Shown one piece after another: positions 10,296-36,636 of a stretch of 64,000 nucleotides of DNA. How positions within the stretch are numbered: the first letter of the stretch is position 1; the number at the start of each line of letters is the position of its first letter. Both the position numbers and the translations under genes were made by a program. Origin of the DNA: Methanolobus sp. WCC4 (GTDB lineage: Archaea > Halobacteriota > Methanosarcinia > Methanosarcinales > Methanosarcinaceae). Location of the stretch: assembly GCF_038022665.1 (NCBI RefSeq), contig NZ_CP150629.1, positions 1,656,480 to 1,720,479 of the forward strand, in the 5' to 3' direction. Under the pieces are notes generated by a model. The model was not told the DNA's origin, did no database searches, and worked only from the letters and a program-made list of their open reading frames with translations.

Positions 10296-11970
10296 GTTTG
10301 AAGACAATAAAAAAAGGGAATATATTCAACTTAGAAAGTTATTTATAACTATTAAAAAGATTCCATACATGGGTACTTGTCAGGATTTACTGGACAAATC
10401 TTACTTATTCAAGTCAAAAGAACAATATAAAGAAGCGTTTGAATTTGCTATTTCTGCCAGAGATTGTGCCGAAAAAGCAAATGATGTTAAAATTTTATCA
10501 TGTGCTCTATGTATGATTGGTTCCATCTTAAATATTGCAGGATTTAACAAAGAACAGGTTCTTGAATACTACCTGCAAGCTTTAAGTATTCAGGAGAAAC
10601 TTGCTCAGGAAAAATCATTTTATTATAAATGGGTTGCTAATACTCAAAATTACCTCGGGAGCCTGCTCACTGATATGGGGAAGGAAGAGGAAGCAAAAGA
10701 AATCTACGAGCGATCTCTGAAACTATATGAGACTCTTCTGTCTGCTAATCCAGAAAATACAATGTACCAGTCATTGGTTGTTAACATTTTGAACGTTCTC
10801 GGAATGCTGCTCATCGAAATGGGGAGGGAAGATGAAGCAGAAGAAAACTACGAGCGTGCTAAAAAAATAAATCCAAATATTCTTTCTGCTGACACAGAAC
10901 ATATGACTTACCAGTCAGATGTACCTCTGACCCTGAACACACTTGGAGATTTGCTCAGTGACATGGGGAGGCAAGAGGAAGCAAAAATAAACTACGAGAG
11001 AGCTATAGAAATCAGAGAGATTCTTCTGTCTGCTGACCCAGAAAATCCGACATACCAGTCATGGATTGCTAACACTCTTAATAGCCTTGGTGCTCTGCTA
11101 AATGATATGGGGAGACAGGAGGAAGCGAAAAATAGCTACAATCGCTCTCTGGAAATCAGAGAGTCTCTTCTATCGGATGATCCGGAAAATACGGCGTACC
11201 AGTCAGACGTAGCTATGACCCTGAACAACCTTGGAAATCTGCTTAAAAAAACGGGGAAGCAAAAGGAAGCAAAAAAGAGCTACAATCGGGCTCTTGAATT
11301 ATACGAGTTTCTTCTTTTTACTGACTCAAAAAACATTGAATACCAGTCATGGGTTGCTAACACCCTGTACAACTTCGGTAATCTGCTCGGTGATATGGGG
11401 AGACCGGATGAAATGAAAAAAAGCTACGAGCGTGCTCTTAAATTATACGAAGCTCTTCTGTCTAACGATTCCAAAAATACTGTATACCAATTACGGGTTG
11501 CTAATGCTCTGAACAACCTTGGTGCTTTGTTCAATGAGATGGAGATGCCGGAGGAAGCGAAAAACAAATTCGATCATGCTCTTACATTATACGAAGCTCT
11601 TTTGTCTACCGATCCCGAAAATACTGTATACCAATTACGGGTTGCTAATGCCCTGAACAATCTCGGTGCTCCGCTCAGTGAGATGGGACGGCATGAGGAT
11701 GCGAAAAATAAATTCGAACAGGCTCTTAAGCTTTACGAATCTCTTCTATCTGCTGACCCCGGAAATAATATGTACCGGTCAGACGTAGCTATGACTCTGA
11801 ACAATCTCGGTTTTCTGCTTTGTGAGATGGGGCAGCAAGAAGAAGCGAAAAAGAAATTCAATCAAGCTCTTAAACTCTATGAGTATCTTCTATCTGCTAA
11901 TCCAGAAAATACTGCGCACCAGTCATTGGTTGCTACCATTCTGGAAAAACTCGAAAATCTGTCGACTTGA
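10294..11970 (+). CDS. Tetratricopeptide-repeat protein with 50-residue units
   Basis: 558 residues if started at TTG 10294; ATG 10369 (MGTCQDLLDK) is an alternative outside the inverted repeat. After an alpha-helical N-terminal region it has about nine units of 50 residues with the pattern YQSxVAxTLNNLGxLLxxMGRxEEAKxxYxRALxLYExLLSADPEN, plus a partial tenth. Each unit holds a helix pair of TPR type. The DNA of units seven and eight is nearly identical (around 11480 and 11630), so the array has expanded recently. TPR arrays bind protein partners; no enzymatic domain, signal peptide or membrane helix is present and no partner is adjacent. Similar solitary TPR proteins are common in Methanosarcinaceae. 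Confidence 0.8.
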   Translation: MFEDNKKREYIQLRKLFITIKKIPYMGTCQDLLDKSYLFKSKEQYKEAFEFAISARDCAEKANDVKILSCALCMIGSILNIAGFNKEQVLEYYLQALSIQEKLAQEKSFYYKWVANTQNYLGSLLTDMGKEEEAKEIYERSLKLYETLLSANPENTMYQSLVVNILNVLGMLLIEMGREDEAEENYERAKKINPNILSADTEHMTYQSDVPLTLNTLGDLLSDMGRQEEAKINYERAIEIREILLSADPENPTYQSWIANTLNSLGALLNDMGRQEEAKNSYNRSLEIRESLLSDDPENTAYQSDVAMTLNNLGNLLKKTGKQKEAKKSYNRALELYEFLLFTDSKNIEYQSWVANTLYNFGNLLGDMGRPDEMKKSYERALKLYEALLSNDSKNTVYQLRVANALNNLGALFNEMEMPEEAKNKFDHALTLYEALLSTDPENTVYQLRVANALNNLGAPLSEMGRHEDAKNKFEQALKLYESLLSADPGNNMYRSDVAMTLNNLGFLLCEMGQQEEAKKKFNQALKLYEYLLSANPENTAHQSLVATILEKLENLST

Positions 11971-20715: not shown

Positions 20716-20846
20716 GGATGATCTCACCAAATTAGTTTCGCATACGTCGGTTTACACAACAAACAGCCTCAGGATGTATAAAGTTATTGTTAGAGATTAT
20801 CAAATTAGCTCATCTTTTTCTCCATTCTAATTTGACAAGCTTTTTC

Positions 20847-21956
20847 TCACACATAATTTGCAAATGAATTTGGATTTTTGACCTTGTTTTGCAAATTTGC
20901 AATCAGCATCAATTGATAAACAACAAAGTTCATGGTAACATAGAGTTCTCTGCTTCCTTTTCTGATTGATCTAACATCAAATTTGAGAATATGCTTCACA
21001 TGCTTGTGAAACCTTTCACAATCTTGTCTTGTCCCTTTTTTCTTCTGGAATTCTGCATCCTCCATGTTCTGATTTCTTAGATACATTCCAACTTGCTTTG
21101 ACCTTCCATGTTTGTAGAGGAACTTCAATTTTCTGTTAAGTGGAAAGTGGGGGTCTCCCCCACTTTTCCACATCTTGTTCATCCAATGATTGATTCTCTC
21201 TATTCTTCCTTCCTCACTGACAACAGCATCAGAAGGAAGGGATATTGTAGGATTCACATTAAGATCATTCCAGATATCTGCGTAGTTAGTGAATGAATCA
21301 TATGCACCATCCAAAGCATATGAATCAACTTCAGGATTCAATCTTTTCAAGAACTCAATATGCTGTTCCAGTTGTGGAGAATCATGTGCCAGTCCCTTTG
21401 TATACGTCATGTACAATGGACAAGTTCCGATTAATGTGATATGCGCTTTATCCATTTTACAGTTATAATGCGGATTATAATCACTATGCTTGTCGTACCT
21501 AGAAGCTTCAATAGGTGTTGAATCTGTTTTTAGGTCCTTTGAAGATGTTAGATCTAGTATTCTCGAAGCTACTTTTTGCATTATTTCCCGGAATCCATTT
21601 TCTCCTAACCTGTATTTCACAAAGTGGTGAAGTGTTGCTCCAGTTGGCATTGAAATATCATCGTTCGTATTAACAAAACGAAGAAGCAGAGCTTCTTCAT
21701 CTGTTAGCGATGAGATAGTTTTGTCAAATGAGAGTTTTCTGAAACACATGACAATGGTGAGTTTTATCATAGAAGAAACACGATACTTGAAATGCCAGTC
21801 TTTATTGGAATAGTAGTTGTTTTCAACATGCTGTGCGATATCATCGATATTAAGAGAATGTAGCAACCGGCAAATTGACACATTATCTTTACCAACGTAG
21901 TTTCGAATGGAGTCCTCAAAGAGGACTCCTTTATACACAGTACAAATATCCTCCAT
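20847..21956 (-). CDS. IS transposase (DDE, IS4/IS5-like superfamily)
   Basis: 369 residues. The DDE triad can be placed at LKTDSTPIEASRY (first Asp), SYALDGAYDS (second Asp) and CERFHKHVKHIL (Glu), in the order and spacing of DDE_Tnp_1 enzymes. It would cut and join the element ends. The N-terminal part (YKGVLFEDSIRNYVG) is probably the DNA-binding region. Start taken at ATG 21956; an in-frame TTG at 21968 also exists. The ORF is intact, so the element may still be active. I cannot assign the exact IS subgroup from sequence alone. Confidence 0.85.
   Translation of the reverse strand: MEDICTVYKGVLFEDSIRNYVGKDNVSICRLLHSLNIDDIAQHVENNYYSNKDWHFKYRVSSMIKLTIVMCFRKLSFDKTISSLTDEEALLLRFVNTNDDISMPTGATLHHFVKYRLGENGFREIMQKVASRILDLTSSKDLKTDSTPIEASRYDKHSDYNPHYNCKMDKAHITLIGTCPLYMTYTKGLAHDSPQLEQHIEFLKRLNPEVDSYALDGAYDSFTNYADIWNDLNVNPTISLPSDAVVSEEGRIERINHWMNKMWKSGGDPHFPLNRKLKFLYKHGRSKQVGMYLRNQNMEDAEFQKKKGTRQDCERFHKHVKHILKFDVRSIRKGSRELYVTMNFVVYQLMLIANLQNKVKNPNSFANYV
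21144..21166. repeat. Perfect 10-bp hairpin inside the transposase gene
   Basis: AAAGTGGGGG-TCT-CCCCCACTTT is a perfect 10-bp inverted repeat within coding DNA. It forms a very stable stem on either strand. Confidence 0.75.
21909..21929. repeat. Perfect 9-bp hairpin near the transposase start
   Basis: GGAGTCCTC-AAA-GAGGACTCC, about 27-48 bases into the transposase reading frame. Stems near the start of IS genes can limit translation driven by read-through from outside promoters. Confidence 0.7.
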
Positions 21957-22293
21957 GAGACTGGCCAAATTTATACTATATGAATCTATTGACCTAGCTA
22001 CTGTTTTTTTTTTTGGGGGGGCGAGGTCTTAAAGAAAAAAGAGGTAAGCTTTTAAGTCAAAATTCTAATTTGATGGACTCTGTTAGCAAGGTTATCCTGA
22101 CGATATGGATAATTACCGTTCAGTCTCCATTTCTGTCAGAAGGTTATGTTTTTCCCGGATAATTAACAGAATTGTCCTTTCAAGGAACAAGAAGAGTACT
22201 GGTCAGTTATTGATATATGTGTCATATGCGGGCAGGGAAGGCCAGCGAAATACTACACTTGCAGAAAAGTATTGAAAGGTCACGGAAAAATCA

Positions 22294-23183: not shown

Positions 23184-23690
23184 TTACTTTCTCATAATTT
23201 CCAGTTCATCGAGGATCAGTTGTATGGTTCTGTCAACTGAATTCTCCACTTTTTCGGAAAGAGACAGGGATAGTTCCTCTGCTTCTTCTATCTCTATGGC
23301 AAAGATCGTGATATCTTCAGGCAGATCCTGTACATGTTCAGCTATACATAGCACATCTGCAAGACTGGTATCATGCAAAGAGTACAAATTTGAAGACGAA
23401 GCCTGTTTTATGTCCTCCGGTTTGAAACGGTGCACCGATCCGACCTCTCCGGCACCTTTGGTTGCATCGACGATTATGACCTTGCTGGCATCTTCAAGCA
23501 GATTGAGGATATCAAGTCCGCTGACACCGGCATCTATCAGCTCTACGTCTTCCGGTAGTTCGTCGCGCATTTCCATAAGGCGGTTGATGATGTGGATACC
23601 TACACCATCATCACCTATAAGTGGGTTCCCGCATCCCAGTATTCTTATCGTATGATCACTCCGCTTGTGGTTGTGGCTGTGTGTCATCAT
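23184..23690 (-). CDS. vhtD: Hydrogenase maturation protease
   Basis: 168 residues of the HycI/HybD/FrcD endopeptidase family. IRILGCGNPLIGDDGVGIH carries the N-terminal GxGNxLxxDDGxG motif with a nickel-binding Asp, and ELIDAGVSGLDIL and KVIIVDATKGAG provide further conserved positions. It would clip the C-terminal tail from the VhtA precursor after nickel insertion. It is the last gene of the vhtGACD operon and its start overlaps the end of vhtC by about 35 bases. The His-rich N-terminus (THSHNHKRSDH) is unusual and may bind metal, or the true start may be slightly later. Confidence 0.92.
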   Translation of the reverse strand: MMTHSHNHKRSDHTIRILGCGNPLIGDDGVGIHIINRLMEMRDELPEDVELIDAGVSGLDILNLLEDASKVIIVDATKGAGEVGSVHRFKPEDIKQASSSNLYSLHDTSLADVLCIAEHVQDLPEDITIFAIEIEEAEELSLSLSEKVENSVDRTIQLILDELEIMRK

Positions 23691-24513
23691 CTACGTTGAT
23701 GAGGTCAACGTAGTGGTGGTCACAGAGGTCGCTCGTTCCTGTCCAGAAGATAGCCTTGTGGTACTTCCATATCTTAGGATCGAGTTCGATGATACCTACA
23801 TGTACGGTCACTTCTATGATAAAGAAGTAAGCCATCAGGAGGTGAACGGTTCGCATAAATGCAAGTGTTCCCAGGTTGAAGTATGGACCGATCATGTCAC
23901 CTGCAAGGAGTATCAGATGGCCTATAGGCAGACCAAGTAATGTCCACTGCTGATGATATAGTGGGATACCACTGATGAATACAAGTGCTACTGCAGCTCC
24001 TTCGAACACAAGAAGGAATTTTGTCATCGGGTGGAGCTTCTCAATGTATCCTCTGTTCTTTACATCGTATACGGTGTAAGCAGGGTATGGCGCCTTACCC
24101 AGATAGTTGAGCAGGATCTGCTTCATCCTCTTTGCATCGTCAGGACCGAACAGGTACCTTCTGGCTATGTGCATTGCCCTGTGAGAATATCCACGGATCC
24201 CGCCAGCCTCACATATCGCACAGTATGGACATTCGGTGGTTATGATGTTATAGGGAATAACTATCCAGTTGGCCACCATGAATACTATCGCAAAGGCCAT
24301 GTGTATATAAAGGGCTGAGTGGTAGGTCATGAACCCCCATCCAGCGTATATCTTGAATCCTGTGACCAGCAGAATGAATAAAGCAACGAGGTGGGCAAAG
24401 TGCGCCAGCCTCTCAGGAAGGGAATATCTTTCAATATGCCTTTCCCCGTGCATCTTGATAGCCTTTCTGCTGATCAGCTTTGGACATTCCGGGTCGCTTT
24501 TCTTTTCAGGCAT
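23656..24513 (-). CDS. vhtC: Vht hydrogenase cytochrome b subunit
   Basis: 285 residues with about five membrane helices: FAHLVALFILLVTGFKIYAG, MAFAVIFMVANWIVIPYNII type segments, LLVFEGAAVALVFISGIPLY, and a helix before the C-terminus. Conserved His residues within and next to these (PERLAHFAHLV, YHSALYIHMAF, TVHLLMAYF, VTVHVGI) are suitable ligands for b-hemes. It anchors VhtGA to the membrane and passes electrons from H2 to methanophenazine. Location between vhtA and vhtD matches the known vht/vho operons of Methanosarcina. Confidence 0.93.
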   Translation of the reverse strand: MPEKKSDPECPKLISRKAIKMHGERHIERYSLPERLAHFAHLVALFILLVTGFKIYAGWGFMTYHSALYIHMAFAIVFMVANWIVIPYNIITTECPYCAICEAGGIRGYSHRAMHIARRYLFGPDDAKRMKQILLNYLGKAPYPAYTVYDVKNRGYIEKLHPMTKFLLVFEGAAVALVFISGIPLYHQQWTLLGLPIGHLILLAGDMIGPYFNLGTLAFMRTVHLLMAYFFIIEVTVHVGIIELDPKIWKYHKAIFWTGTSDLCDHHYVDLINVDDDTQPQPQAE

Positions 24514-24526
24514 GTGAATTCACCCC

Positions 24527-26317
24527 TTATACTATAGTAAAGGTTCTTGGGGTTCTGTCCTTCTCTGTCAGGTCGATGGTATGGACAGCACATGCGATAC
24601 ATGGGTCAAAGGACCTTGCAGTATGCAATATACCTGTAGGGTTGGCATTGTCGACACCAAGGAGATTCTCAGCTGCAGATATCTTTGTACCCATCAAAGC
24701 CTGTTCCAGAGGACCAGGCACTCCATTCGCATCTCTTGGTGAGCAGTTCCATGTTGTTGGAACGACCATCTGGTAATTCGTGATCTTCAGGTCGGAACCT
24801 GCCTTGACCCAGTGTCCAAGTGCACCACGTGGAGCTTCCCATAGGCCGATACCACGTGAGTCCTTTGCATTCTTCAGTTCAGGGTCGACGTAGTACTTGC
24901 CGTTTGGATCAAGGTCCACGGTCACCCATTTGAGGAACTGTTCAGAAAGGATCAGGAGTTCCTGTGCCTTTGCTATCATCCTTGTGAAGCTGTTGACAGC
25001 GGAATATCCATTCTCTGAGAACAGGTTCATCAGACCGGTGGTCAGTGGTTCGTTCATTGCTAACATACGGGAGACCGGACCTACCTCACATGGTATTCCA
25101 TTGTAGCGTGGTGCCTTTATCCAGCTGTACCTGCTGTCGCTGCCACCCTCAAAGTCGATCTCACTGGCAGATGTCACAGGGTCGGTCACGCCGTCGAATG
25201 GGTGCAGAGCATCATCAGATGTATAGAATCCATGGGTTGTCTCTTCTGTGATGTATTTATGGTCGAAGCCCTTCTTCTCGAATGAACTGTTAATGAATGA
25301 AGCTGGCTGGAACGACGTCTGGCCGAATCCTACAGGGTCGTAACCATCGCCGTTCTCGACATCATAGAATACACCATATGTAAGGAAACCTACGTTTGAA
25401 TCCTCAGGGTAGGCACCGGTCCTGTCCAGCTTGAAACTGGCAGGCAGTCCAAGGGTCTTCTCTCCGATCAGTTCCGAACCGAATGCGCTGATAAGTTCAA
25501 GGTCACCCCATCCTGCATTCTGTGAGAAATTGTTGGATGAAAGGGATCTGTCAACCACACTCTGCAGGTGTTCAAGCAGGAAGTTCACAGCTTTCTGCGG
25601 GGATGATGCCCTATAGGTGTTCTCCAGCCATGTTTCATGGTCGACACCCAATGTGGAACCATCGACGAAATCCATTAATTTATGATAGTAAGCGGTAAGC
25701 TTTCCTATGTCAGCAAGTGATGGGCGATATGTGACACCACCGGCAACAGTTGACATCTGGTGTGGCATCTTTCCGCCCATGAGGGCCAATGCCTCTTCAA
25801 GATTCTTCTTCTGTTTGATGCCGTCTATGTAAGCTGTTCCCGGAGCTACGGACTCTCCATTCAGCTTATAGCTGATCGGTGCGAAACGGGAGAGAAGCTC
25901 TTTCCATAGAGCACTGCCTGTGCCCTCGACGGTATCAAGTATGTTCTTATATGCAGGGTTCACAAGGTCCGGGCCCCAGAGCACATAGATATGTGTTGCA
26001 TGGCTTGCCATTGTGTTGAGTGACTGGATGAGGTTCCTTGTCACAAGTGCATCTTTTGGTATCTGGTCCGCTACCTCATAAAGGTCATCAAGGGCATTGA
26101 CAGCTGCCAGTGATTGTGCTGTGGGGCAGATACCGCATATCCTCTGTGTGAAACGTGCAGCGTCTCTTGGATCACGGTTGACGAGCATACGCTCCATTCC
26201 CCTGAAAAGCATTCCGGAGCTCTGCGCATCTGTGATCACTCCATTCTCATTAACCTCTGTAGCTATACGAAGGTGGCCTTCGATACGTGTTAAAGGATCT
26301 ACAACAACACGGGTCAT
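24527..26317 (-). CDS. vhtA: Methanophenazine-reducing [NiFe]-hydrogenase large subunit
   Basis: 596 residues. Nickel-binding motifs are RICGICPTAQSLAA near the N-terminus and DPCIACAVHTIDLTEK near the C-terminus. The residues after the conserved His are the tail removed by VhtD. It catalyses H2 oxidation (or formation in reverse), with electrons going through VhtG and VhtC to methanophenazine. It lacks its own export signal and should travel through Tat together with VhtG. It begins three bases after the vhtG stop. The VxDPLTRIEGH motif at the N-terminus is intact, so the enzyme looks functional. Confidence 0.97.
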   Translation of the reverse strand: MTRVVVDPLTRIEGHLRIATEVNENGVITDAQSSGMLFRGMERMLVNRDPRDAARFTQRICGICPTAQSLAAVNALDDLYEVADQIPKDALVTRNLIQSLNTMASHATHIYVLWGPDLVNPAYKNILDTVEGTGSALWKELLSRFAPISYKLNGESVAPGTAYIDGIKQKKNLEEALALMGGKMPHQMSTVAGGVTYRPSLADIGKLTAYYHKLMDFVDGSTLGVDHETWLENTYRASSPQKAVNFLLEHLQSVVDRSLSSNNFSQNAGWGDLELISAFGSELIGEKTLGLPASFKLDRTGAYPEDSNVGFLTYGVFYDVENGDGYDPVGFGQTSFQPASFINSSFEKKGFDHKYITEETTHGFYTSDDALHPFDGVTDPVTSASEIDFEGGSDSRYSWIKAPRYNGIPCEVGPVSRMLAMNEPLTTGLMNLFSENGYSAVNSFTRMIAKAQELLILSEQFLKWVTVDLDPNGKYYVDPELKNAKDSRGIGLWEAPRGALGHWVKAGSDLKITNYQMVVPTTWNCSPRDANGVPGPLEQALMGTKISAAENLLGVDNANPTGILHTARSFDPCIACAVHTIDLTEKDRTPRTFTIV

Positions 26318-26319
26318 TT

Positions 26320-27480
26320 TTATTCCTCCAGTTTTTCCTTGTGTTCTTCAGCGTATTTGTCGAAAATGATCCTGCGTGCAGCATGGGCAGCCACACCGAC
26401 CGTTGCAGCACCTACTCCTATGGCTGACATGGTACCGACATTCATTCCATATGCAAGTGGCTTGTCCTCTATCATCTCATAGAATGGTGAAGCAGCATCC
26501 GGGAATCCTGGTTCACAGCATGCTATACAGGAGGAACCTGCCTGTGTGCACATACTTACTCCATTGTTCCACTTTCTCAGGCCACAGTCCGAGCGTGTGT
26601 AAGGTCCTTTACATCCGACCTTCAGCAGGCATCCCTTGCCTGAGAAGTCATCGTCCAGTATGCCTCTGTCATAGTATCCCCTGCGCGGGCAATTGTCATG
26701 CATGGAATTATCTGCCGGGAAGAAAACGAGAGGACGTTTATATGTATCCAGTACAGGATCAAGGTTGTTGATGTCTATCTTACCAAGGATCACAGCTGCG
26801 AGTGTGAGGAGTACCCAGTCAGGGTGTGTCGGACATCCGGCAATGTTTATTACAGGTTTATCGATACCGAGCTCTGAGAGCATGCCTCCATAAGGATTCT
26901 CATTAAGGTAGGCAACGCCTCTGAAATCAGTAAGTTCTTTCAGGTCGCTGTCTGATGAATTTATACCACCGTATGCAGCGCACATTCCCACTGCCAGGAT
27001 AGCAGATGCATTGCTTGCAGCCTTCTCGAATATGTCCTTGAAGGTGCGCTCTCCATACATGCAGTATTTACCGGATCCTTCCGGACCATTTGCAATGGAT
27101 CCTTCGACCACAAGTATATAGTTACCCTCTTCGATAGCTTCATCCAGGAGTATCTCTGAGTTGAGTTCTGAGGTTGATGCAGGTCTGCCATCGACGAAGA
27201 TACCCTGCTGTGCGAGCAGTGTCTCGTGGAAGGCCAGGTCAACACTGAGCTTTTCGATCGCCTGGGAAAGGTCAGGGTTGCCACCATCCAGAAGGGATGC
27301 GGAACAACCTGTGCATTCTGCTCCGTGCAGCCAGATGACCTTTGTCTTTGAGAGCTCAAGTGCTTTTGTTATCTGTGAACGGTGTATTCCTAAAAATGTG
27401 GACGCTCCTATGGCACCTACCACCTTCAGGAAAGTTCTTCTATCCATACTTAAGAAATCCTGTTTTTCTGTTTTTTCCAT
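26320..27480 (-). CDS. vhtG: Methanophenazine-reducing [NiFe]-hydrogenase small subunit
   Basis: 386 residues. The N-terminal MDRRTFLKVVGAIGASTFLG is a twin-arginine signal peptide. Iron-sulfur ligands are visible at WLHGAECTGCSASLL (proximal cluster), AGCPTHPDW, the CPRRGYYD and GCKGPYTRSDC region, and SSCIACCEPGFPD. The C-terminal hydrophobic segment (YGMNVGTMSAIGVGAATVGV) helps anchor it. It is the first gene of the vht operon and is exported with VhtA. Genes for the Tat machinery lie about 5 kb away. The start is the ATG giving MEKTEKQDFLSMDRRTFLK. Confidence 0.97.
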   Translation of the reverse strand: MEKTEKQDFLSMDRRTFLKVVGAIGASTFLGIHRSQITKALELSKTKVIWLHGAECTGCSASLLDGGNPDLSQAIEKLSVDLAFHETLLAQQGIFVDGRPASTSELNSEILLDEAIEEGNYILVVEGSIANGPEGSGKYCMYGERTFKDIFEKAASNASAILAVGMCAAYGGINSSDSDLKELTDFRGVAYLNENPYGGMLSELGIDKPVINIAGCPTHPDWVLLTLAAVILGKIDINNLDPVLDTYKRPLVFFPADNSMHDNCPRRGYYDRGILDDDFSGKGCLLKVGCKGPYTRSDCGLRKWNNGVSMCTQAGSSCIACCEPGFPDAASPFYEMIEDKPLAYGMNVGTMSAIGVGAATVGVAAHAARRIIFDKYAEEHKEKLEE

Positions 27481-27666
27481 GGGTCTAAGCTCCTGTAACC
27501 AGATAAAATTTGATCATGAATGCTTGAACGTGATTGTCATGATTGTTAACGCTAATAAAGGTTTCTGACTGTTCTTAATTTTTTATAATATTTAATAATA
27601 ATTTCTAATAGCAATATGGTTTTTAAGTAAGTATCTTTTATATACTTAAAATGCCAATTCAAAACC
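27481..27666. promoter_or_regulatory. Divergent vht / hyp promoter region
   Basis: 186 AT-rich bases between vhtG (minus) and hypC (plus). TTTTATATAC at 27636-27645 is a TATA box only about 22 bases before the hypC ATG, and no ribosome site precedes that ATG, so the hyp transcript may be leaderless. The inverted repeat TAAGTAT-N7-ATACTTA (27628-27648) flanks this box and could be a repressor site. A second AT-rich stretch near 27578-27596 (TTTTTTATAATATTT) may serve vht. Confidence 0.55.
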
Positions 27667-27909
27667 ATGTGTATTGCAATCCCCGGCAAAGTGACCGAAT
27701 TGCTGGATGAATATACTGCCATGGTCGATTTTGGAGGCGTTGAAAGGCAGATCAAGCTCGACCTTCTTGGAGAATGTGATGAGACGCTTCTTGGGCAGTA
27801 TGTCCTGGTGCATGTTGGTTATGCCATTTCTTTGCTTAGTGAAGAAGAAGGAAAAGAAACCCTCGAGCTCATAGGTGAGCTTCTGGAAGGAGAACAGGAT
27901 GTCTGTTGA
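27667..27909 (+). CDS. hypC: Hydrogenase assembly chaperone HypC
   Basis: 80 residues. The N-terminal MCIAIPGKV has the essential Cys2 (after Met removal, the first residue), and AMVDFGGVERQIKLDLL is the OB-fold core. HypC carries the iron with its CN and CO ligands together with HypD and hands it to the hydrogenase precursor. First gene of the hyp operon. Its stop overlaps the start of the downstream hypD copy (ATGTCTGTTGA). The DNA encoding its last 29 residues is included in a 403-bp tandem duplication. Confidence 0.95.
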   Translation: MCIAIPGKVTELLDEYTAMVDFGGVERQIKLDLLGECDETLLGQYVLVHVGYAISLLSEEEGKETLELIGELLEGEQDVC

Positions 27910-28626
27910 GTCAGAACTCCTGGAAAAGATACGTGATATCTCACGTCCTGTCAGGATAATGCATATCTGTGGGACCCATGAGAGAACCATCTCTAAATAT
28001 GGGATGCGTGATGTGCTTCCCGAAGAGATCGAAGTGCTCAGTGGCCCCGGTTGTCCGGTATGTGTTACTCCCGAACAGGAGATCGACCGTGCAATAGCAC
28101 TGGCCGAGTCAGGTGTGGTCATTACATCCTTCGGTGACATGATGCGTGTTCCCGGAAGTAATGGCAGTCTTATGGAAGCCCGTTCAAGGGGATGCGATGT
28201 GAGGATGGTCTACAGCATCGATGATGCCATTTCTTTGCTTAGTGAAGAAGAAGGAAAAGAAACCCTCGAGCTCATAGGTGAGCTTCTGGAAGGAGAACAG
28301 GATGTCTGTTGAGTCAGAACTCCTGGAAAAGATACGTGATATCTCACGTCCTGTCAGGATAATGCATATCTGTGGGACCCATGAGAGAACCATCTCTAAA
28401 TATGGGATGCGTGATGTGCTTCCCGAAGAGATCGAAGTGCTCAGTGGCCCCGGTTGTCCGGTATGTGTTACTCCCGAACAGGAGATCGACCGTGCAATAG
28501 CACTGGCCGAGTCAGGTGTGGTCATTACATCCTTCGGTGACATGATGCGTGTTCCCGGAAGTAATGGCAGTCTTATGGAAGCCCGTTCAAGGGGATGCGA
28601 TGTGAGGATGGTCTACAGCATCGATG
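27821..28626 (+). repeat. Exact 403-bp tandem duplication across hypC/hypD
   Basis: 27821-28223 and 28224-28626 look identical base for base by eye. Both units begin with ATGCCATT, and the same octamer follows the second unit at 28627. In the ancestral order ATGCCATT occurs once in hypC and once in hypD, so duplication by slippage or unequal exchange between these 8-bp repeats explains the structure. Confidence 0.92.
27899..28312 (+). pseudogene. Truncated hypD copy fused to HypC tail
   Basis: The duplicated unit starts with the normal hypD ATG and reads 108 residues of HypD (MSVESELLEKIRDIS ... DVRMVYSIDDA). It then passes the duplication joint and continues in frame into the last part of HypC (ISLLSEEEGK ... 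EGEQDVC), giving a 137-residue hybrid. It retains the N-terminal CGTH motif and GPGCPVCVTP but lacks the rest of HypD, including the C-terminal 4Fe-4S cysteines. It should not work as HypD. Its end overlaps the start of the complete hypD, so translational coupling in the operon is preserved. The identity of both copies means it is very recent, or an assembly error. Confidence 0.85.
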
Positions 28627-29369
28627 ATGCCATTGCCATTGCAGAGAAGGAACCTGAAAAGAAGGTAGTGTTCTTTGCCATTGGTTTCGAGACAACGGCA
28701 CCCACCAATGCAGCAGCGATCCTTCGAAGACCGCCTGAGAATTTCAGCCTGCTCCTGTCGCACAAACTGACGATCCCTGCCATGAAAGAGCTTATCAAAG
28801 AGATCGAAGTGGATGCTTTTGTTGCTCCCGGACATGTCTGTACTATAATAGGAGTACATCCTTTCGAGCAATTCGCCGAAAAAGGGTTCCCTATAGTTGC
28901 AGCAGGATTCGAATCTGACGAACTGCTTCTTGCCATTCTCATGATACTGGAACAACAGAAGAACGGCACATATGTCGTTGAGAATGCATATCCCAGGGCT
29001 GTGCGGGATGAAGGCAACATCCGTGCTCAGGAAATGATGGAACAGGTATTCGAGACTGTTGATTCGGACTGGCGTGGTATCGGGACCATTAGGGATTCAG
29101 GACTGAAGATAAGACTTGAGTTCTCAAAGTATGATGCAGCACTGATCTATGAGGATGCCATCAATGAGAAGATGAAGGATATCCCATATGGTGATCCAGC
29201 TGCTTCACTCTGCCGCTGTGCCGATATCCTGAAAGGAAAGGAGAAGCCGGACAATTGTCCTCTTTTTGCAAAACGATGTAACCCCGCAAACCCTGTAGGT
29301 TCCTGTATGGTAAGCCAGGAAGGCATGTGCTATAACTGGTTCCGCTATAGAGGTGTCGATAATGCATGA
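28302..29369 (+). CDS. hypD: Hydrogenase maturation protein HypD
   Basis: 355 residues, complete. MHICGTHERTI, GPGCPVCVTPEQEID and FFAIGFETTAPTNA are the conserved HypD motifs; APGHVCTIIG and the C-terminal cysteine set (CRCADIL, NCPLFAKRC, GSCMVSQEGMCYNW) bind the 4Fe-4S cluster. With HypC it assembles the Fe(CN)2CO unit of NiFe hydrogenases. ATG 28302 is the equivalent of 27899 in the truncated copy. Its stop overlaps the hypA start by eight bases. Confidence 0.95.
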   Translation: MSVESELLEKIRDISRPVRIMHICGTHERTISKYGMRDVLPEEIEVLSGPGCPVCVTPEQEIDRAIALAESGVVITSFGDMMRVPGSNGSLMEARSRGCDVRMVYSIDDAIAIAEKEPEKKVVFFAIGFETTAPTNAAAILRRPPENFSLLLSHKLTIPAMKELIKEIEVDAFVAPGHVCTIIGVHPFEQFAEKGFPIVAAGFESDELLLAILMILEQQKNGTYVVENAYPRAVRDEGNIRAQEMMEQVFETVDSDWRGIGTIRDSGLKIRLEFSKYDAALIYEDAINEKMKDIPYGDPAASLCRCADILKGKEKPDNCPLFAKRCNPANPVGSCMVSQEGMCYNWFRYRGVDNA

Positions 29370-29745
29370 GTATTCGCTGGCATGTGAGATCATGGATAAT
29401 GTGATCTCCATTTCAGAGACCAACGGAGCAAAGGGTGTGAACTCGATAACCGTGGGCGTGGGAAAACTAACCCATGTGAACCCGGACCAGTTGACGTTCT
29501 GCCTTGAATCGCTTGTAAGCGAGAATATCGCCCGTGGTGCCGAGATCATACTTAACGAGATCTATCCTGAAATGGAATGCCAGTGTGGTTTTTCAGACAG
29601 CGGGAAAAGGTTCTGTACTACAGATGACGAGGTTATAGATGATATCAGGGTCTTCCTGGATGTCCCATGCCCCGAATGCGGGGAGATGATGCAGGCTTCA
29701 GGTGGTCGTGAACTTATCATCGAAAGTATCGATATTGAACAATAG
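29362..29745 (+). CDS. hypA: Hydrogenase nickel incorporation protein HypA
   Basis: 127 residues beginning MHEYSLACEIMD, with the conserved MHE nickel-binding N-terminus. The zinc site is built from CQCG and CPECG pairs; the insert between them is longer than in bacterial HypA, as is common in archaea. It works with HypB to insert nickel. ATG 29362 sits inside the end of hypD, and HypB follows 12 bases after the stop. Confidence 0.94.
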   Translation: MHEYSLACEIMDNVISISETNGAKGVNSITVGVGKLTHVNPDQLTFCLESLVSENIARGAEIILNEIYPEMECQCGFSDSGKRFCTTDDEVIDDIRVFLDVPCPECGEMMQASGGRELIIESIDIEQ

Positions 29746-29757
29746 GAGATCTTCATT

Positions 29758-30426
29758 ATGTTAATGCATGTGATCAATGTGGGCCATGATGTTCTCAAGG
29801 CCAACGACAAACTTGCAGAGAAAAACAAAAAACGACTTGACAAGAACAATGTTCTTGCCATAAACTTCATGGGTGCCATTGGTTCAGGAAAGACCACACT
29901 CATTGAAAGGACCATCACAGAACTGGGTAAGAAGTACCGCATAGCTGTGATAGCCGGTGATGTTATCGCTGATATGGATGCAGGAAGGATAGCAAAGCTC
30001 GGTGTTACTACCATTCCTGTGAACACGGGAAGGGAATGCCATCTAGATGCAAAGCTGGTGGAGAAGGCATTGAAGTCCATAGACCTCAAGAATATCGATA
30101 TCCTTCTCATGGAGAATGTGGGTAATCTCATCTGTCCTGCTGACTACCAGCTTGGTGAACACCTCCGCGTAGTTGTGGTAAGTGTCACTGAGGGTGATGA
30201 TATAGTCCTGAAACATCCGGTCATATTCAAGAGCACGGATATCGCTATCATTCACAAGAAGGATCTTGCAGAGGCGGTGTTCGCCAGTACGGAGAAGATG
30301 GAGGGAGATGTCAGACATCTTAACCCTGATATCCCTGTACTGAAGACATCAATTCACGATAAGGAAAGCATGGACCAGTGGTTCTCAACCATCTCATCAC
30401 TTGCAGATGAGCGTAAAAAGGAATGA
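29758..30426 (+). CDS. hypB: Hydrogenase nickel incorporation GTPase HypB
   Basis: 222 residues. The P-loop is NFMGAIGSGKTTLIE; GDVIADMDAGRI and ENVGNLICPADYQLGE (switch/metal region) and the IIHKKDL guanine-specificity motif follow. It is a GTP-dependent nickel donor acting with HypA. It has no His-rich nickel-storage stretch at the N-terminus. GGAGATC stands six bases before the ATG at 29758; an in-frame ATG two codons later is also possible. Confidence 0.95.
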   Translation: MLMHVINVGHDVLKANDKLAEKNKKRLDKNNVLAINFMGAIGSGKTTLIERTITELGKKYRIAVIAGDVIADMDAGRIAKLGVTTIPVNTGRECHLDAKLVEKALKSIDLKNIDILLMENVGNLICPADYQLGEHLRVVVVSVTEGDDIVLKHPVIFKSTDIAIIHKKDLAEAVFASTEKMEGDVRHLNPDIPVLKTSIHDKESMDQWFSTISSLADERKKE

Positions 30427-30431
30427 TGTAA

Positions 30432-31484
30432 ATGTCATCTCAAAAAACGATAACTATGGAACATGGTGCCGGTGGCCAGTTCATGCAGGAACTCATCGGT
30501 GGCATGATACTGAAGAACATCACCAATCGCTCTGCAGGAACCGTAGGTCTTGATGACCTTGACGACGGTTCCACCATTACCCTTCCCGATGGACTGGATG
30601 ATGGTGCCGAGCTTGTAATGACCACCGACAGTCATGTGGTGGATCCTCTGTTCTTCCCTGGTGGGGATATTGGTAAACTGGCGGTCTGCGGAACGGTCAA
30701 CGACCTGACAGTCATGGGTGCAACACCGCTGGCCCTTACATGTGCGATCATTCTTCCTGAGGGCTTCGAACTATCAGTCTTTGAAGATGTCATCAGGTCC
30801 ATGAACCTTGCAGCAGAGGAAGCCGGAGTTGCCATTGTCACAGGTGATACCAAGACCATCCAGGGCAACAAACTGGATTCTATGATCATCAACACCACCG
30901 GAGTGGGAATCGCTCCTGAGGTCGTCAGGGACAACGGACTCTCCCCGGGTGATGCCATCATAGTCACAGGCAACCTGGGAGACCACGGAATTGCACTGCT
31001 CTCGCACAGGGAAGGTTTCGATTTCGAAACAAAGCTGGTCTCTGATGTCTCACCGGTCAACGGACTCCTCAAAGGCCCACTCTGTCTAAGGACAGAGGAT
31101 GGCAGGCCTGTCATCACAGCCATGAAGGACCCCACACGTGGAGGACTGGCTGCATCAACAAACGAGATGGCCCAGAAGAGTGGTGTCGGGATAGTCCTTG
31201 AAGAAAGCGATATCCCTGTTGACATGGCAGTGAACACTGCATGTGAGATGCTCGGACTCAATCCTCTTGAGATAGCCAATGAAGGAAAGGCCGTAATAGG
31301 TGTCAGACCCGAATATGCCGAAGAGGTACTTGAGATGCTGAAAGACCACAAATATGGTTCAAATGCCCGTATAGTCGGCAAAGCTGTCAGTGAGAATGCA
31401 GGAAAGGTCCTGCTCAGGACATCAATAGGAAGCCTTCGTCAGCTTGGAATGCCAGTTGGCGATCCTATTCCAAGGGTCTGCTGA
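30432..31484 (+). CDS. hypE: Hydrogenase maturation protein HypE
   Basis: 350 residues. TMEHGAGGQFMQELI near the N-terminus and the C-terminal PIPRVC are diagnostic: the last Cys receives the carbamoyl group from HypF and is dehydrated to thiocyanate using ATP, then passes cyanide to iron on HypCD. The AIR-synthase-like fold is seen in DDGSTITLPDG and DPTRGGLAAS. Last gene of the hypCDABE operon. HypF is encoded 3 kb downstream on the opposite strand. Confidence 0.96.
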   Translation: MSSQKTITMEHGAGGQFMQELIGGMILKNITNRSAGTVGLDDLDDGSTITLPDGLDDGAELVMTTDSHVVDPLFFPGGDIGKLAVCGTVNDLTVMGATPLALTCAIILPEGFELSVFEDVIRSMNLAAEEAGVAIVTGDTKTIQGNKLDSMIINTTGVGIAPEVVRDNGLSPGDAIIVTGNLGDHGIALLSHREGFDFETKLVSDVSPVNGLLKGPLCLRTEDGRPVITAMKDPTRGGLAASTNEMAQKSGVGIVLEESDIPVDMAVNTACEMLGLNPLEIANEGKAVIGVRPEYAEEVLEMLKDHKYGSNARIVGKAVSENAGKVLLRTSIGSLRQLGMPVGDPIPRVC

Positions 31485-32093
31485 AAGGCAGGCTCGATAT
31501 CTTTTTCTTATTTTTAGCTCTGAAAAAGGCCTTTGTAGGGGTTCTGCTGATTACAACTTTGACCACAGAATTTTTCAATAACTGTATTTTTTCAGTCTTC
31601 TTCAGGATGAAAGCGAAGGAATGTGCCGCCTGCGGCGGGTGGTAGCAGTGTTCTTCGTTATAAATGATCTTTAGTATAACTATCAGAAACACAAGGATGC
31701 AGGAATAATAAGTTTGACCGATTGGAAGTCATGAATTACTTAATCCATCCCGAAGGGTCCCGGCGAAGCCGGCACGGTCCGAAAAGGTGAATTAAATTAT
31801 CTGTTGTCTTCACTTCTTTCTCTACATACCGGAATTGAATATCGCGATATTTATCATAAGACTGAAAGTCCAGATTATGGAAGATATGTACGATTACATG
31901 ATTCATTCAAATGAGAATCTCTACAGAATCCAAAAAAGCGTATTATAATGTTTATGAAGGAATATGAGAATTAGTTGAAAAACATAAAGTGAGCATGAAA
32001 AGGAGTTTTACTCACCTTTTTAGCATGGTGTTGATCCAGGTGAGAAGCTCCTCCTCCTCTTTCCGATGGAAACAATACCTGATCAGATGCTAT
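31485..32093. other. Gene-free region between hypE and tatA
   Basis: About 610 bases between convergent genes, with no ORF that I can support. Most of it is the dispersed repeat described separately. The part beyond 31930 is AT-rich and shows nothing recognisable. Confidence 0.5.
31527..31930 (-). repeat. Dispersed intergenic repeat, copy B
   Basis: This stretch, read on the minus strand, matches the region 54861-55187 in order: an end resembling TTCTGTAGA near 31927, GTGCCGGCTTCGCCG (31761-31775), CCTTGTGTTTCTGATA (31681-31696) and CCACCCGCCGCAGGCGGCAC (31623-31642). Sequence between the blocks is diverged. It lies between the convergent hypE and tatA genes. Confidence 0.7.
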
Positions 32094-32321
32094 TCAGCTA
32101 GCATCAGCATCTTCATTTTCTTCTGAAACTGTTGTTACCGGATCCTTGAGGGAACGTTCGAATTCCTTCACTGCGATCTCTGACTCTTTCTGTGCCTTCT
32201 TGAATTCACCCATGGAAGTTCCCATGGAACGTGCGAGTTCAGGTAATTTGGCAGCACCAAAGAGTAAGAATATCACTGCAAAGATCAGTATAAGCTCAGT
32301 TGGGCCTAATCCGCCTATCAT
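32094..32321 (-). CDS. tatA: Sec-independent translocase protein TatA
   Basis: 75 residues: one N-terminal membrane helix (GPTELILIFAVIFLLFGAAKLPEL), the conserved FGxxKLPEL hinge and an amphipathic helix (ARSMGTSMGEFKKAQKE), then an acidic tail. TatA oligomers form the pore-like part of the twin-arginine translocase. It is the last gene of a tatC-tatA/B-tatA group on the minus strand, nine bases after its paralogue. The likely client in this window is VhtG with its RR signal peptide. Confidence 0.93.
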   Translation of the reverse strand: MIGGLGPTELILIFAVIFLLFGAAKLPELARSMGTSMGEFKKAQKESEIAVKEFERSLKDPVTTVSEENEDADAS

Positions 32322-32330
32322 AATCTATCA

Positions 32331-32666
32331 CTACTCCGTTTTTGGTATGTTTTTCATGTCATCGGTCCTGGCGGCTTCTTCCATGAGAGCAAGAAGTTCT
32401 TCTGTGCTCTTATCCTGCACATCTATCCCTGCTGAGGCTGCGATCTGCCTGACCTTCTCATCGACATCCGTTTGGTCAGGAGTTGTATCCTTATTGACCG
32501 GGGCTGTCATGTCAAGATCGGACAGGCCAAGTTCAGCAGATATCTGTGCCTTCTGGAAGTCACCATATGCCTTCCCGGCTGCCCGTGCAAGCTCGGGTAT
32601 CTTGTCGGGACCAAAGATAAGCAACGCAGCGACCAGTATGACAACTATCTCCAGCGAACCTATCAT
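32331..32666 (-). CDS. TatA/TatB-like translocase protein
   Basis: 111 residues with the TatA/B layout: membrane helix GSLEIVVILVAALLIFGPDKIPEL, then ARAAGKAYGDFQKAQISAE and a longer acidic tail. The FGPDKIPEL hinge with Pro resembles TatB as well as TatA, and the longer tail hints at a TatB-like role. Archaea usually have only TatA/TatC, so the division of labour between the two paralogues is open. It lies in an operon between tatC and tatA. Confidence 0.88.
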   Translation of the reverse strand: MIGSLEIVVILVAALLIFGPDKIPELARAAGKAYGDFQKAQISAELGLSDLDMTAPVNKDTTPDQTDVDEKVRQIAASAGIDVQDKSTEELLALMEEAARTDDMKNIPKTE

Positions 32667-32719
32667 GGTATCACTAATCTCCTTAATTCCTTTCTGACAT
32701 AAATACCTTTTTTGTTCGC

Positions 32720-33484
32720 TTATCTCGAAACAAGTAACCCTATCTCAAATAACACTATCAAGAGAACCGCGCATACAAGTTGGGCAATAAATGTAGGGTC
32801 CGGTGTTATAAATAGGGAAAGTGTAAGAAGTGATGCATAGACCACAAGTCTCATCTTTTTGAGTGTTGCATGCCTGATAAGCTGCATCCTTGTGGCAAAG
32901 AACATCAGCACAGGTATCTGGAACACAAGGCCTGTGCCTGCCATCAGGGTAACTGCCATGGAAACTGTCTGTTTGACGGATATCTGGTTATCGGCAAAAC
33001 CCTCGGATGCCAGGATGATATAGTCGAACATCAAAGGCAGGATGAATATCAGTGCGATGGCAGCTCCTCCTATGAAGAATATGAAGGATACCGGGACCAC
33101 GCTCTTTACGAACTTCCTCTCATTGGGATACAGTCCCCTTGAAGCGAACCTAAAAAGCTCATAGAATGTGAAAGGCAGAGTGAATGCAACAGCCATCAGC
33201 AATGAGATCTTGAGCCTGGCGAACATCCATTCGAAAGGTGTGTAGATGTTCATCTCTATATTCTCGCCCAGGAAAGTATTCCATGCGTGAGTGAGCAGAG
33301 CTTCTGTGAAAGGATATGTCACAATTACACAGAGGAGCATTGCCAGGATTATCACAACAAAGCGGTTGCGCAACTCACGCAGATGGTATATGACGTGTTC
33401 ATTATAATCTCCTGACACGCCGCTACTGCCCGAATTGACTTTATTTTCAGTACGTTTTTGGTTTCCAATTCGTTCGTAATCCAT
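32720..33484 (-). CDS. tatC: Sec-independent translocase protein TatC
   Basis: 254 residues with six membrane helices. The N-terminal YHLRELRNR motif includes the Glu that recognises the twin-arginine signal; YTPFEWMFARLKIS and LPFTFYELFRFASRGLYPNER are the conserved periplasmic and cytoplasmic loops. It is the receptor of the Tat pathway. Start chosen at ATG 33484 (MDYERIGNQK); the upstream in-frame codons to 33523 have no ribosome site. First gene of the tat operon, divergent from a second tatC-like gene about 80 bases away. Confidence 0.93.
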   Translation of the reverse strand: MDYERIGNQKRTENKVNSGSSGVSGDYNEHVIYHLRELRNRFVVIILAMLLCVIVTYPFTEALLTHAWNTFLGENIEMNIYTPFEWMFARLKISLLMAVAFTLPFTFYELFRFASRGLYPNERKFVKSVVPVSFIFFIGGAAIALIFILPLMFDYIILASEGFADNQISVKQTVSMAVTLMAGTGLVFQIPVLMFFATRMQLIRHATLKKMRLVVYASLLTLSLFITPDPTFIAQLVCAVLLIVLFEIGLLVSR

Positions 33485-33564
33485 AAGATCAGTGTAGGTT
33501 TGGGATATATACCATAAAAACATAGTACCCGCAAAAACGTAAAGGTGATATTCTGAATTCTTAT

Positions 33565-34290
33565 ATGGAAGACCTTGGTGTGATCATAGTTTCACTCAGG
33601 AAGAAAATAGCCCTCTTCTTATCATTATTCTTTGTTGTCTTCATGGTATCTTTCCAGTTTGCAGGCTTTTTGATAAGCACAATAAAGGAAGACCTTTTGC
33701 CAGAGGGCGCAAAACTGGTCTACGTATCTCCCCTTGAGATCATGTTGTTGAAGATGAAGATAGCATTGTTCATTGGCCTGTTCTTCGTACTGCCATTCGT
33801 GCTGTTCTTCGCTGTCAGGGCAATTATGAAAAGGAAGATGGTAACGATAAATGTCCGAAAAGGACCACTCTTCATCGTTTCCGTGATCGCTATTGTCTCT
33901 TTCCTGGCAGGTGTATCCTATGCATACTTCATTATGCTCCCGCTTTTCATCGATTATCTGTACCTGAATGCTGCTGCTTCAGGTGTTGTTGCTACCTACT
34001 CGATATTCAGCTTCATATCCTTCGCAGTACAGGCATCGCTGATATTCGGTTTCGTGTTCGAGACACCACTTGTATTGACAACGCTGACACGTTTTGGTAT
34101 AGTGCAATACCAGACACTTGTGACATATCGAAAACACATCTATGTGCTGTGCCTGATCATAGGCGCTGCGATCACGCCACCTGATATAATAAGCCAGATG
34201 ATGGTCGGTATACCACTTCTCGTGTTCTTCGAACTGAGCATGATAATAGTCAGGATCGCAGGTAAAGGAAAAAAGAAGGATAAAGACTGA
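33565..34290 (+). CDS. Divergent second TatC-like protein
   Basis: 241 residues and about six membrane helices (ALFLSLFFVVFMVSFQFAGF, IALFIGLFFVLPFVLFFAV and others) with the TatC topology, including YVSPLEIMLLKMKIAL and a late ITPPDIISQ segment matching ITPDPTFIAQ of the first TatC. The N-terminal motif is degenerate: VIIVSLRKK in place of HLRELRNR, so the signal-binding Glu is missing. Basic C-terminal tail (KGKKKDKD). It stands alone, divergent from the tat operon. It may be a partner of TatC or handle other clients. GGTGAT is 15 bases before the ATG, rather far. Confidence 0.82.
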   Translation: MEDLGVIIVSLRKKIALFLSLFFVVFMVSFQFAGFLISTIKEDLLPEGAKLVYVSPLEIMLLKMKIALFIGLFFVLPFVLFFAVRAIMKRKMVTINVRKGPLFIVSVIAIVSFLAGVSYAYFIMLPLFIDYLYLNAAASGVVATYSIFSFISFAVQASLIFGFVFETPLVLTTLTRFGIVQYQTLVTYRKHIYVLCLIIGAAITPPDIISQMMVGIPLLVFFELSMIIVRIAGKGKKKDKD

Positions 34291-34365
34291 AACGGATTGT
34301 TTCTGGTGGGATCAGGGTCTTTCAATCGAGTGATATTTCCTGTAACCTTGATACTCCCTTATCCT

Positions 34366-36636
34366 TTATTCACTCAGGCTGGCAACGATTGCCTGTCCGA
34401 GTGATATGCCCGCATCTCCGCATGGCAGTCTGCTGTGTGAGATGAACTCAAGTCCGTTCTCTTCTACTACATCCCGGATACAATAGCTGATGTGCTCATT
34501 GTAGGCCACACCACCTGTGAGTCCAACTGTGTCGATACCTGTCCTTCCTGCTGCCCGGATAGCCAGTTCGGCCATCCCCCTGGCAAAGGCATCCTCGAAT
34601 GCCCATGCGAGTTCAGGTACAGTATGTTCATCAAGGCGCTGATATAGTTCAAAGAGCAACATACCGGTATCCAGAACCTCATCATTTATCGTAACCGGAA
34701 GTTCCAGTGTCCTTTCCTTTGCCTTTCTGGCAATGGATTCCAGTTTCATGGCAGGTTCCCCCTGATAGCTGCGATAGTTGCATATCCCAAGCAAGGCGGA
34801 TGCTGCGTCCAGCACTCTTCCCGAACTGCTGGACATTATGACATTGATCTTCTTATCCAGTTGTCCAAGGACCAGTCTTGCTTCCTTTTGCCCGTGTTTG
34901 AGTTCGAAAGGCAGTTCCAGCAGCTCATCATCGTCAACCAGTCCCTTCAACATTGAAAGGGCCATACGCTCAGGGTAATAGGAACACAGGTCCCCGCCGG
35001 GCATTGCATGTGGCTTAAGGTGTGCCAGTCTCTTATGGTCCGTATAGCTTGCTTCAAGGATCTCTCCGCCCCACACGGTTCCGTCAGATCCGTATCCCAC
35101 GCCGTCAAGAGCTATGCCTATTATCCTTGAATCACGGTCCAGTTTTGCATCCGCCATGAGCGAGACCAGGTGGGCATGATGGTGCTGGACAGGGACAACA
35201 GCATCTCCACCGTTCTCCTTTGCAAAGAGGGTCGTATTGAAATGCGGATGAAGGTCACATCCCCATCGTTCCGGCTTTATGGAAGTGAGCTTTGAGAATC
35301 TGCGGAAGACCTCCGAATGGTATCCGGCAGTCTCAAAATGACTGGTATTGCCTATATGAGGTGAAATATATGCCTTGTTCCCTGATGCAAATATGAGCGT
35401 ATTGCTCAGTTCGGCACCAACACCAACACAGGGCCTTACTTCAAAGGGGAGTTCTATGGGCTGCGGAACATATCCGCGGGAGCGACGAATGAAAACGTGA
35501 TCATCCGAGAATGACCTGATGACCGAGTCATCGATACGATTCTCTATTCTCAGATCGTGCATGAGATAATTATCTGCCACAGTTGTAAGGTCACTGATGG
35601 CCACATCATTGTCAATGACCATTGGCAGGCCGGGAACATTGGCCGATGTCATCACATACGCATTGCCTGATGTTTCCCTGAAGATCATATTATGGATGCC
35701 TGAGTATGGAAGCATCACCCCTACATTATGCAGGTCCGGGGCGATCCCTGCAAGTGCATCGCAGTCCTCTTTCTTGTCCAGTATCACCACGGGCCGTTTA
35801 CTGCTGATCAGTAGTTCTTTCTCTTTTGCATTGATGTGGACAAGTTGCTTTGCAGCATCGATATCCTTTGCCATTATAGCAAATGGCTGCTGTGGTCTGC
35901 CCAGTCGTTCCCTTAAAATTTCCACTGCATCTTCCTGAAAGGCATCGCAAACAAGATGGAATCCGCCATATCCCTTGATGGCTATTATCTTCATATCATC
36001 AATGGCCTGTGCACAGTCAATGATGGCCTGTTGTTCCCGTGACAGGATCTTGCCAGTCCTGTCAGCAAAGCTCATCTCAGGACCACAATCCTGGCAGCAG
36101 ACCGTTTGTGCATGGAACCTTCTGTCGGCAGGCGATGAATATTCACCATCACATATGCTACATGGCTGGAAATCCTTCATGGATGTGCTGTGACGGTCAT
36201 ATGGAAGTGTCTTCGTCAGGGTATATCGGGGTCCACATTCCGTACATGAGATGAATGGATAACCGTAACGTCTGTTCTTTATGTCGGAAAGTTCGGATAT
36301 GCAGTTATTGCAGATCCCTATATCGGGTACCAGGATAGAGTTAGGGGTACTGTCACTGCTGCTTTCCATGATGGAAAAACCGGGATGCTCATTGACCTCG
36401 GCTTCCTCAATTCCGATCGAGTCTATATGACTTTCAGGTGGTCTTTCTGCCTGGAGGTCATGAAGAAAGGATTCTATCTGCTGTGCAGTACCTTCTGCTT
36501 CGATCTCAACACGTCCACCCGTATTCCGCACAAAACCACTAATCCCGTTCTTCACAGCCATGCGATAGACGAATGGTCTGAATCCCACACCCTGTACGAT
36601 CCCTTCAACTTTGATAATCCTGCTGACAATAGTCAT
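34366..36636 (-). CDS. hypF: Carbamoyltransferase HypF
   Basis: 756 residues, complete. The acylphosphatase domain (about 1-90) has VEGIVQGVGFRPFVYR. Zinc-finger pairs follow (CNNCISEL, CTECGPRYT, CSICDGEY, CQDCGPEMS, about 105-185). Next comes a YrdC-like domain (GYGGFHLVCDA onward) and a C-terminal Kae1-like domain with VQHHHAHL and GLTGGVAYNEHI. It makes carbamoyl-adenylate from carbamoyl phosphate and transfers it to the HypE C-terminal Cys. Carbamoyl phosphate comes from CarAB, also in this window. It is on its own transcript, separated from hypCDABE by the tat genes. Confidence 0.96.
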   Translation of the reverse strand: MTIVSRIIKVEGIVQGVGFRPFVYRMAVKNGISGFVRNTGGRVEIEAEGTAQQIESFLHDLQAERPPESHIDSIGIEEAEVNEHPGFSIMESSSDSTPNSILVPDIGICNNCISELSDIKNRRYGYPFISCTECGPRYTLTKTLPYDRHSTSMKDFQPCSICDGEYSSPADRRFHAQTVCCQDCGPEMSFADRTGKILSREQQAIIDCAQAIDDMKIIAIKGYGGFHLVCDAFQEDAVEILRERLGRPQQPFAIMAKDIDAAKQLVHINAKEKELLISSKRPVVILDKKEDCDALAGIAPDLHNVGVMLPYSGIHNMIFRETSGNAYVMTSANVPGLPMVIDNDVAISDLTTVADNYLMHDLRIENRIDDSVIRSFSDDHVFIRRSRGYVPQPIELPFEVRPCVGVGAELSNTLIFASGNKAYISPHIGNTSHFETAGYHSEVFRRFSKLTSIKPERWGCDLHPHFNTTLFAKENGGDAVVPVQHHHAHLVSLMADAKLDRDSRIIGIALDGVGYGSDGTVWGGEILEASYTDHKRLAHLKPHAMPGGDLCSYYPERMALSMLKGLVDDDELLELPFELKHGQKEARLVLGQLDKKINVIMSSSSGRVLDAASALLGICNYRSYQGEPAMKLESIARKAKERTLELPVTINDEVLDTGMLLFELYQRLDEHTVPELAWAFEDAFARGMAELAIRAAGRTGIDTVGLTGGVAYNEHISYCIRDVVEENGLEFISHSRLPCGDAGISLGQAIVASLSE

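Follow-up and report, generated by a model that had tools for sequence, protein, structure and literature searches.

An exact 403-bp tandem duplication in the hyp operon of Methanolobus sp. WCC4, very probably a recent microhomology-mediated event

The stretch of DNA analysed here (the window, 64,000 nucleotides) comprises positions 1,656,480–1,720,479 of one 2,851,899-base contig from Methanolobus sp. WCC4. Within it, a complete hydrogenase island that includes hypCDABE spans window positions 23184–36636, and the hyp genes adjoin a membrane-bound [NiFe]-hydrogenase cluster, presumably of the Vht type. Of 27 Methanolobus genomes only 7 have HypD, and the island is therefore patchy in the genus. 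The features of the island and of the duplication inside its hyp operon are, in window coordinates:

23184–23690, minus strand: maturation protease
23656–24513, minus strand: membrane cytochrome b-like subunit
24527–26317, minus strand: hydrogenase large subunit
26320–27480, minus strand: hydrogenase small subunit with a twin-arginine signal
27667–27909, plus strand: hypC, intact, 80 aa (Pfam HupF_HypC 5.3e-24; TIGR00074 above cut-off)
27821–28223, no strand: first 403-bp unit of the exact tandem duplication (unit 1)
27821–27828, plus strand: microhomology octamer ATGCCATT on the hypC side, upstream breakpoint, read as TAT GCC ATT (Tyr-Ala-Ile) in HypC
27899–28312, plus strand: hybrid frame hypD', 137 aa (Pfam HypD 3e-46 over 6–122; below the NCBIfam hypD cut-off)
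28224–28626, no strand: second 403-bp unit of the exact tandem duplication (unit 2), 100% identity to unit 1
28224–28231, plus strand: junction octamer ATGCCATT, hypD flank (GATG) at left and hypC flank (TCTTTG) at right
28302–29369, plus strand: hypD, intact, 355 aa (Pfam HypD 1.8e-138; TIGR00075 above cut-off)
28627–28634, plus strand: microhomology octamer ATGCCATT on the hypD side, downstream breakpoint, read as GAT GCC ATT (Asp-Ala-Ile) in HypD
29362–29745, plus strand: hypA (Pfam HypA 1.6e-21)
29758–30426, plus strand: hypB (Pfam cobW/HypB/UreG 2.6e-21)
30432–31484, plus strand: hypE (Pfam AIRS and AIRS_C; translation ends PRVC)
32094–32666, minus strand: two tatA genes
32720–33523, minus strand, and 33565–34290, plus strand: two tatC genes
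34366–36636, minus strand: hypF

The open reading frames and their Pfam and NCBIfam profile matches give the operon order hypC, 137-residue hybrid, hypD, hypA, hypB, hypE, in agreement with an earlier note on this DNA, which had also proposed that HypC and a complete HypD survive on either side of the hybrid. Indeed, full hypC and hypD are each complete family matches above cut-off. The last 89 bases of hypC form the start of unit 1. Since each unit carries the hypC stop, the overlapping hypD start and the upstream ribosome-binding site (GGAG), all copied exactly, the hybrid and hypD have identical start regions. Each start still overlaps the preceding frame, and the duplication should therefore cost the cell little.

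In a self-comparison, positions 27821–28223 and 28224–28626 are adjacent, head-to-tail and 100% identical over 403 bp, as the earlier note had reported. The exact self-match at a lag of 403 is 411 bp, longer than the unit itself, because the first eight bases, ATGCCATT, recur a third time at 28627–28634. An exact match of this length cannot have arisen by chance. The octamer, which the note had recognised in both the hypC and the hypD sequence, thus lies at 27821, 28224 and 28627. On its left the first copy is flanked by hypC sequence (GGTT), and on its right the third is flanked by hypD sequence (GCCATT), while the middle copy joins the two genes as GATG-ATGCCATT-TCTTTG. This arrangement is typical of tandem duplications formed at 8 bp of microhomology: head-to-tail exactness, a direct repeat at both breakpoints and one repeat copy kept at the junction are the features of a microhomology-mediated event. 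A 5-bp hairpin beside the junction octamer (28215–28227) was considered and set aside as unremarkable (terminator-like sites, 5 found and 3.3 expected).

The breakpoints fall in conserved protein motifs. The octamer encodes Ala-Ile in both genes, as part of GYAI in HypC and DDAI in HypD, and these motifs place GCN-ATH in one common codon phase, so that a fusion between the two sites is automatically in frame. The octamer is a by-product of codon conservation, with conserved protein motifs supplying the microhomology.

The comparison with close relatives that the earlier note had proposed was carried out with one genome per species, the duplication itself being known from one assembly. Among HypD proteins, that of M. 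profundi is the closest (85%). The duplication is absent from every relative examined; all of their hypC-hypD loci are single-copy, which is the ancestral state from which a microhomology-mediated tandem duplication starts. The two units show 0 differences in 403 bp, compared with 46/403 to M. profundi. The upper 95% bound on divergence between the units is approximately 0.74%, or ~7% of the M. profundi distance, provided that gene conversion has not acted. In the aligned Methanolobus relatives the hypC-side octamer position reads ATGCTATC, differing at two synonymous positions, and the perfect ATGCCATT pair is therefore private to this lineage among those sampled. At the hypD-side position the M. 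profundi bases are identical. The same hypC/hypD site pair in relatives has 2 to 8 bp in common. Eight shared base pairs are also found in UBA470 (ATGCTATC) and in Methanosarcina MSH10X1, neither of which is duplicated; these two loci are natural comparison loci for the rate of duplication.

An older duplication whose copies have been held identical by gene conversion would differ from a recent event in age alone. Tandem identical copies recombine readily, and conversion could keep older copies alike; the two synonymous differences of the hypC-side octamer both match hypD, as conversion from the junction could explain. Two third-position changes are, however, ordinary, given that 33/108 hypD third positions differ from M. 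profundi, and repeats this long should tend to collapse, not to persist. We regard the older age as improbable.

Exact identity would also be expected if the assembly itself had duplicated the unit, by an unmerged 403-bp contig overlap or an untrimmed contig end joined head to tail. To assess this, we searched the whole genome for exact and near-exact tandem copies and counted TRF rows with a period of at least 60. The 403-bp array is the sole row, out of 34, whose period is not a multiple of three; the remaining 33 (~22 loci) have periods divisible by three, as in-frame modular repeats do. No further non-modular tandem copy was found in the genome, and systematic assembly duplication was rejected on this ground; no other such duplication occurs in the 2.85 Mb. 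The other exact direct repeats of at least 200 bp (three ~5.2-kb blocks, which are of rRNA-operon size, ~1.2-kb copies, which are IS-like, and modular arrays) are all resolved in one contig. As these are harder repeats than the one studied here, the assembly was probably built from long reads.

Several of these repeats are of interest in their own right. At window positions 20793–22013, a 1.22-kb block with an exact copy elsewhere in the genome overlies a gene for a 373-aa transposase that matches IS1182/IS5 weakly. Exact repeats of similar size are found at genome positions 883394, 2550440 and 2850602; the one at 2850602 stops 66 bases short of the contig end. The window also contains imperfect modular repeats of 282 bp (7750–8285) and of 144 bp (10663–11914, TPR-like by eye), both with periods that are multiples of three. 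Outside the window, at contig positions 1089714–1094556, ~18 copies of a 270-bp unit with 99% identity form an unusually homogeneous array.

Long-read assemblers are known to err by tens to hundreds of bases and to duplicate contig-end bases, which favours an artefact, while Flye contig-end errors were at most 13 bp in one benchmark (PMC8442456). In the present assembly, longer repeats have been resolved and the duplication lies away from the contig ends. A contig-end or circular-join artefact was rejected: the contig, which was not rotated to start at an origin gene, begins within a sugar-nucleotide gene cluster, its two ends share no overlap, and the duplication itself sits at 1.68 Mb. Moreover, microhomology of at least 8 bp occurs at 0.023–0.027% of random breakpoint pairs in this genome (~2.5 in 10,000), so a blind joining error would seldom look like this one. 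Blind contig overlaps almost never show 8-bp microhomology, whereas replication slippage and microhomology repair do. Together, these data make an assembly error unlikely, if slightly less so than the older age considered above. The earlier note had left the choice between a young duplication and an assembly error. A young, microhomology-driven origin is well supported by the identical copies, the 8-bp homology, the absence from relatives, the uniqueness in the genome and the resolution of harder repeats; the assembly error has been made less likely and no more than that. The locus thus very probably represents a real and recent microhomology-mediated tandem duplication that arose in a single mutational event.

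We propose that during replication or repair a nascent strand that was paired at ATGCCATT in hypD shifted to the identical octamer in hypC, 403 bases upstream, and copied the intervening stretch a second time. Such a step would leave two exact head-to-tail units with one octamer retained at the junction. The event would be near-neutral, with a whole hypC at the left and a whole hypD at the right, and the operon should still be translatable because the duplicated stretch brings its own ribosome-binding site and hypC-stop/hypD-start overlap. The copies would be expected to collapse to one at a measurable rate. In Deinococcus, 438-bp direct repeats undergo deletion by recombination at ~6.5e-4 (PMC4627823), and by analogy collapse to one copy is expected in Methanolobus cultures.

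The reading frame at 27899–28312 encodes the 137-residue, in-frame fusion of HypD to a HypC tail that the earlier note had described. The protein consists of HypD residues 1–111 followed by the last 26 HypC residues; its last 28 residues match HypC, as the two residues Ala-Ile are common to both parents, and the peptide MVYSIDDAISLLSEEEGK spans the fusion junction. Against the NCBIfam HypD profile (TIGR00075) it scores 167.6 bits, below the cut-off of 192.8, over profile positions 21–138 of 372. The hybrid starts MSVESE and hence does not have the HypC N-terminal Met-Cys (Cys2). Also missing are HypD residues 112–355, including the cysteines of the 304–343 region; these C-terminal cysteines we take to be those assigned to the [4Fe-4S] cluster. 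HypD Cys24, Cys52, Cys55 and Asp80 are retained, and Asp80 aligns with T. kodakarensis Asp100. The latter is the counterpart of E. coli Asp98, which is among the residues important in HypD, and HypC Cys2 and HypD Cys41 are predicted to hold the iron (PMC12130793).

The AlphaFold model of the hybrid has a moderate mean pLDDT of 69, and the HypC-derived tail, at 31–50, is predicted to be disordered. The best structural match to the model is the HypD chain 2z1d (Z 10.7, 81 aligned residues, 1.8 Å), in which the match covers chain range 66–304; this suggests that the native HypD domain also uses a later segment that is absent from the hybrid. Near-full-length matches to 3vyr, 3vys and 3vyu have rmsd values of 7–9 Å. 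With these values and the moderate model confidence, we dropped any reading of function from the fold. A search of 150 genomes of the class yielded no comparable partial HypD beside hypD, which rules out a conserved hypD' gene among them; the other partial HypD matches are lone or frame-broken and lie in different genomes.

The evidence does not support the earlier idea of a hybrid still able to bind HypC partners: HypC Cys2 is missing from it, as are two thirds of HypD with the C-terminal cysteines, and the HypC-derived tail is predicted to be disordered. A function is unlikely, and we expect the hybrid to be a dead by-product, probably translated, non-functional and likely degraded; there is a small chance that it interferes with HypC-HypD assembly. 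Selection might instead have kept the duplication, with the hybrid as a decoy, regulator or dosage device for the HypC-HypD scaffold. Its frame is open and in phase behind a ribosome-binding site identical to that of hypD, and Cys24, Cys52, Cys55 and Asp80 match residues important in HypD (PMC12130793). Weighed against the missing HypC Cys2, HypD 112–355 and C-terminal cysteines, the moderate mean pLDDT of the model with its low-scoring tail, and the lack of a like partial HypD next to hypD in any other of the 150 class genomes, this seems highly improbable; moreover, identical copies carry no readable trace of selection. More improbable still is a reversible switch, in which a HypD'-HypC-tail peptide made by cells with two units would damp the maturation of [NiFe]-hydrogenase, and a return to one unit would restore it. 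If such a switch existed, its host would be a methylotroph for which H2 metabolism may at times be dispensable, and its site pair would be predisposed by codons common to conserved HypC and HypD motifs.

If reads confirm it, the locus would be a clean archaeal tandem duplication captured while its copies are still unchanged and both of its breakpoints can be read. It could then serve to determine the rates at which such copies arise and collapse in a methanogen. The locus also illustrates that conserved motifs in neighbouring genes can give in-phase microhomology, in which case a fusion is in frame automatically. Knowledge of hydrogenase maturation is unchanged by it.

The two parent genes are whole and are typical members of the families that form the HypC-HypD scaffold (PDB 3VYR, 3VYS, 3VYU; 2Z1D), whereas the hybrid, with less than a third of HypD and 26 HypC residues, cannot be a scaffold. 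The 403-bp repeats provide a substrate of the same length class as the 438-bp direct repeats of Deinococcus, which were studied for slipped mispairing and single-strand annealing (PMC4627823); there the repeats lay in an engineered reporter with a 1.5–10.5-kb spacer, while the present copies abut each other in an archaeal host. The closest likeness is to microhomology-mediated tandem duplication (MTD), known from fission yeast ssp1 and from other genomes (review PMC13207564), with which the locus shares exact head-to-tail copies, a short bounding direct repeat, one repeat copy at the junction and expected reversibility. Unlike the fission yeast case, the host is archaeal and the 403 bp lie across a gene boundary with no gene broken. 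The event thus belongs to the known MTD class and is new only as an instance of it.
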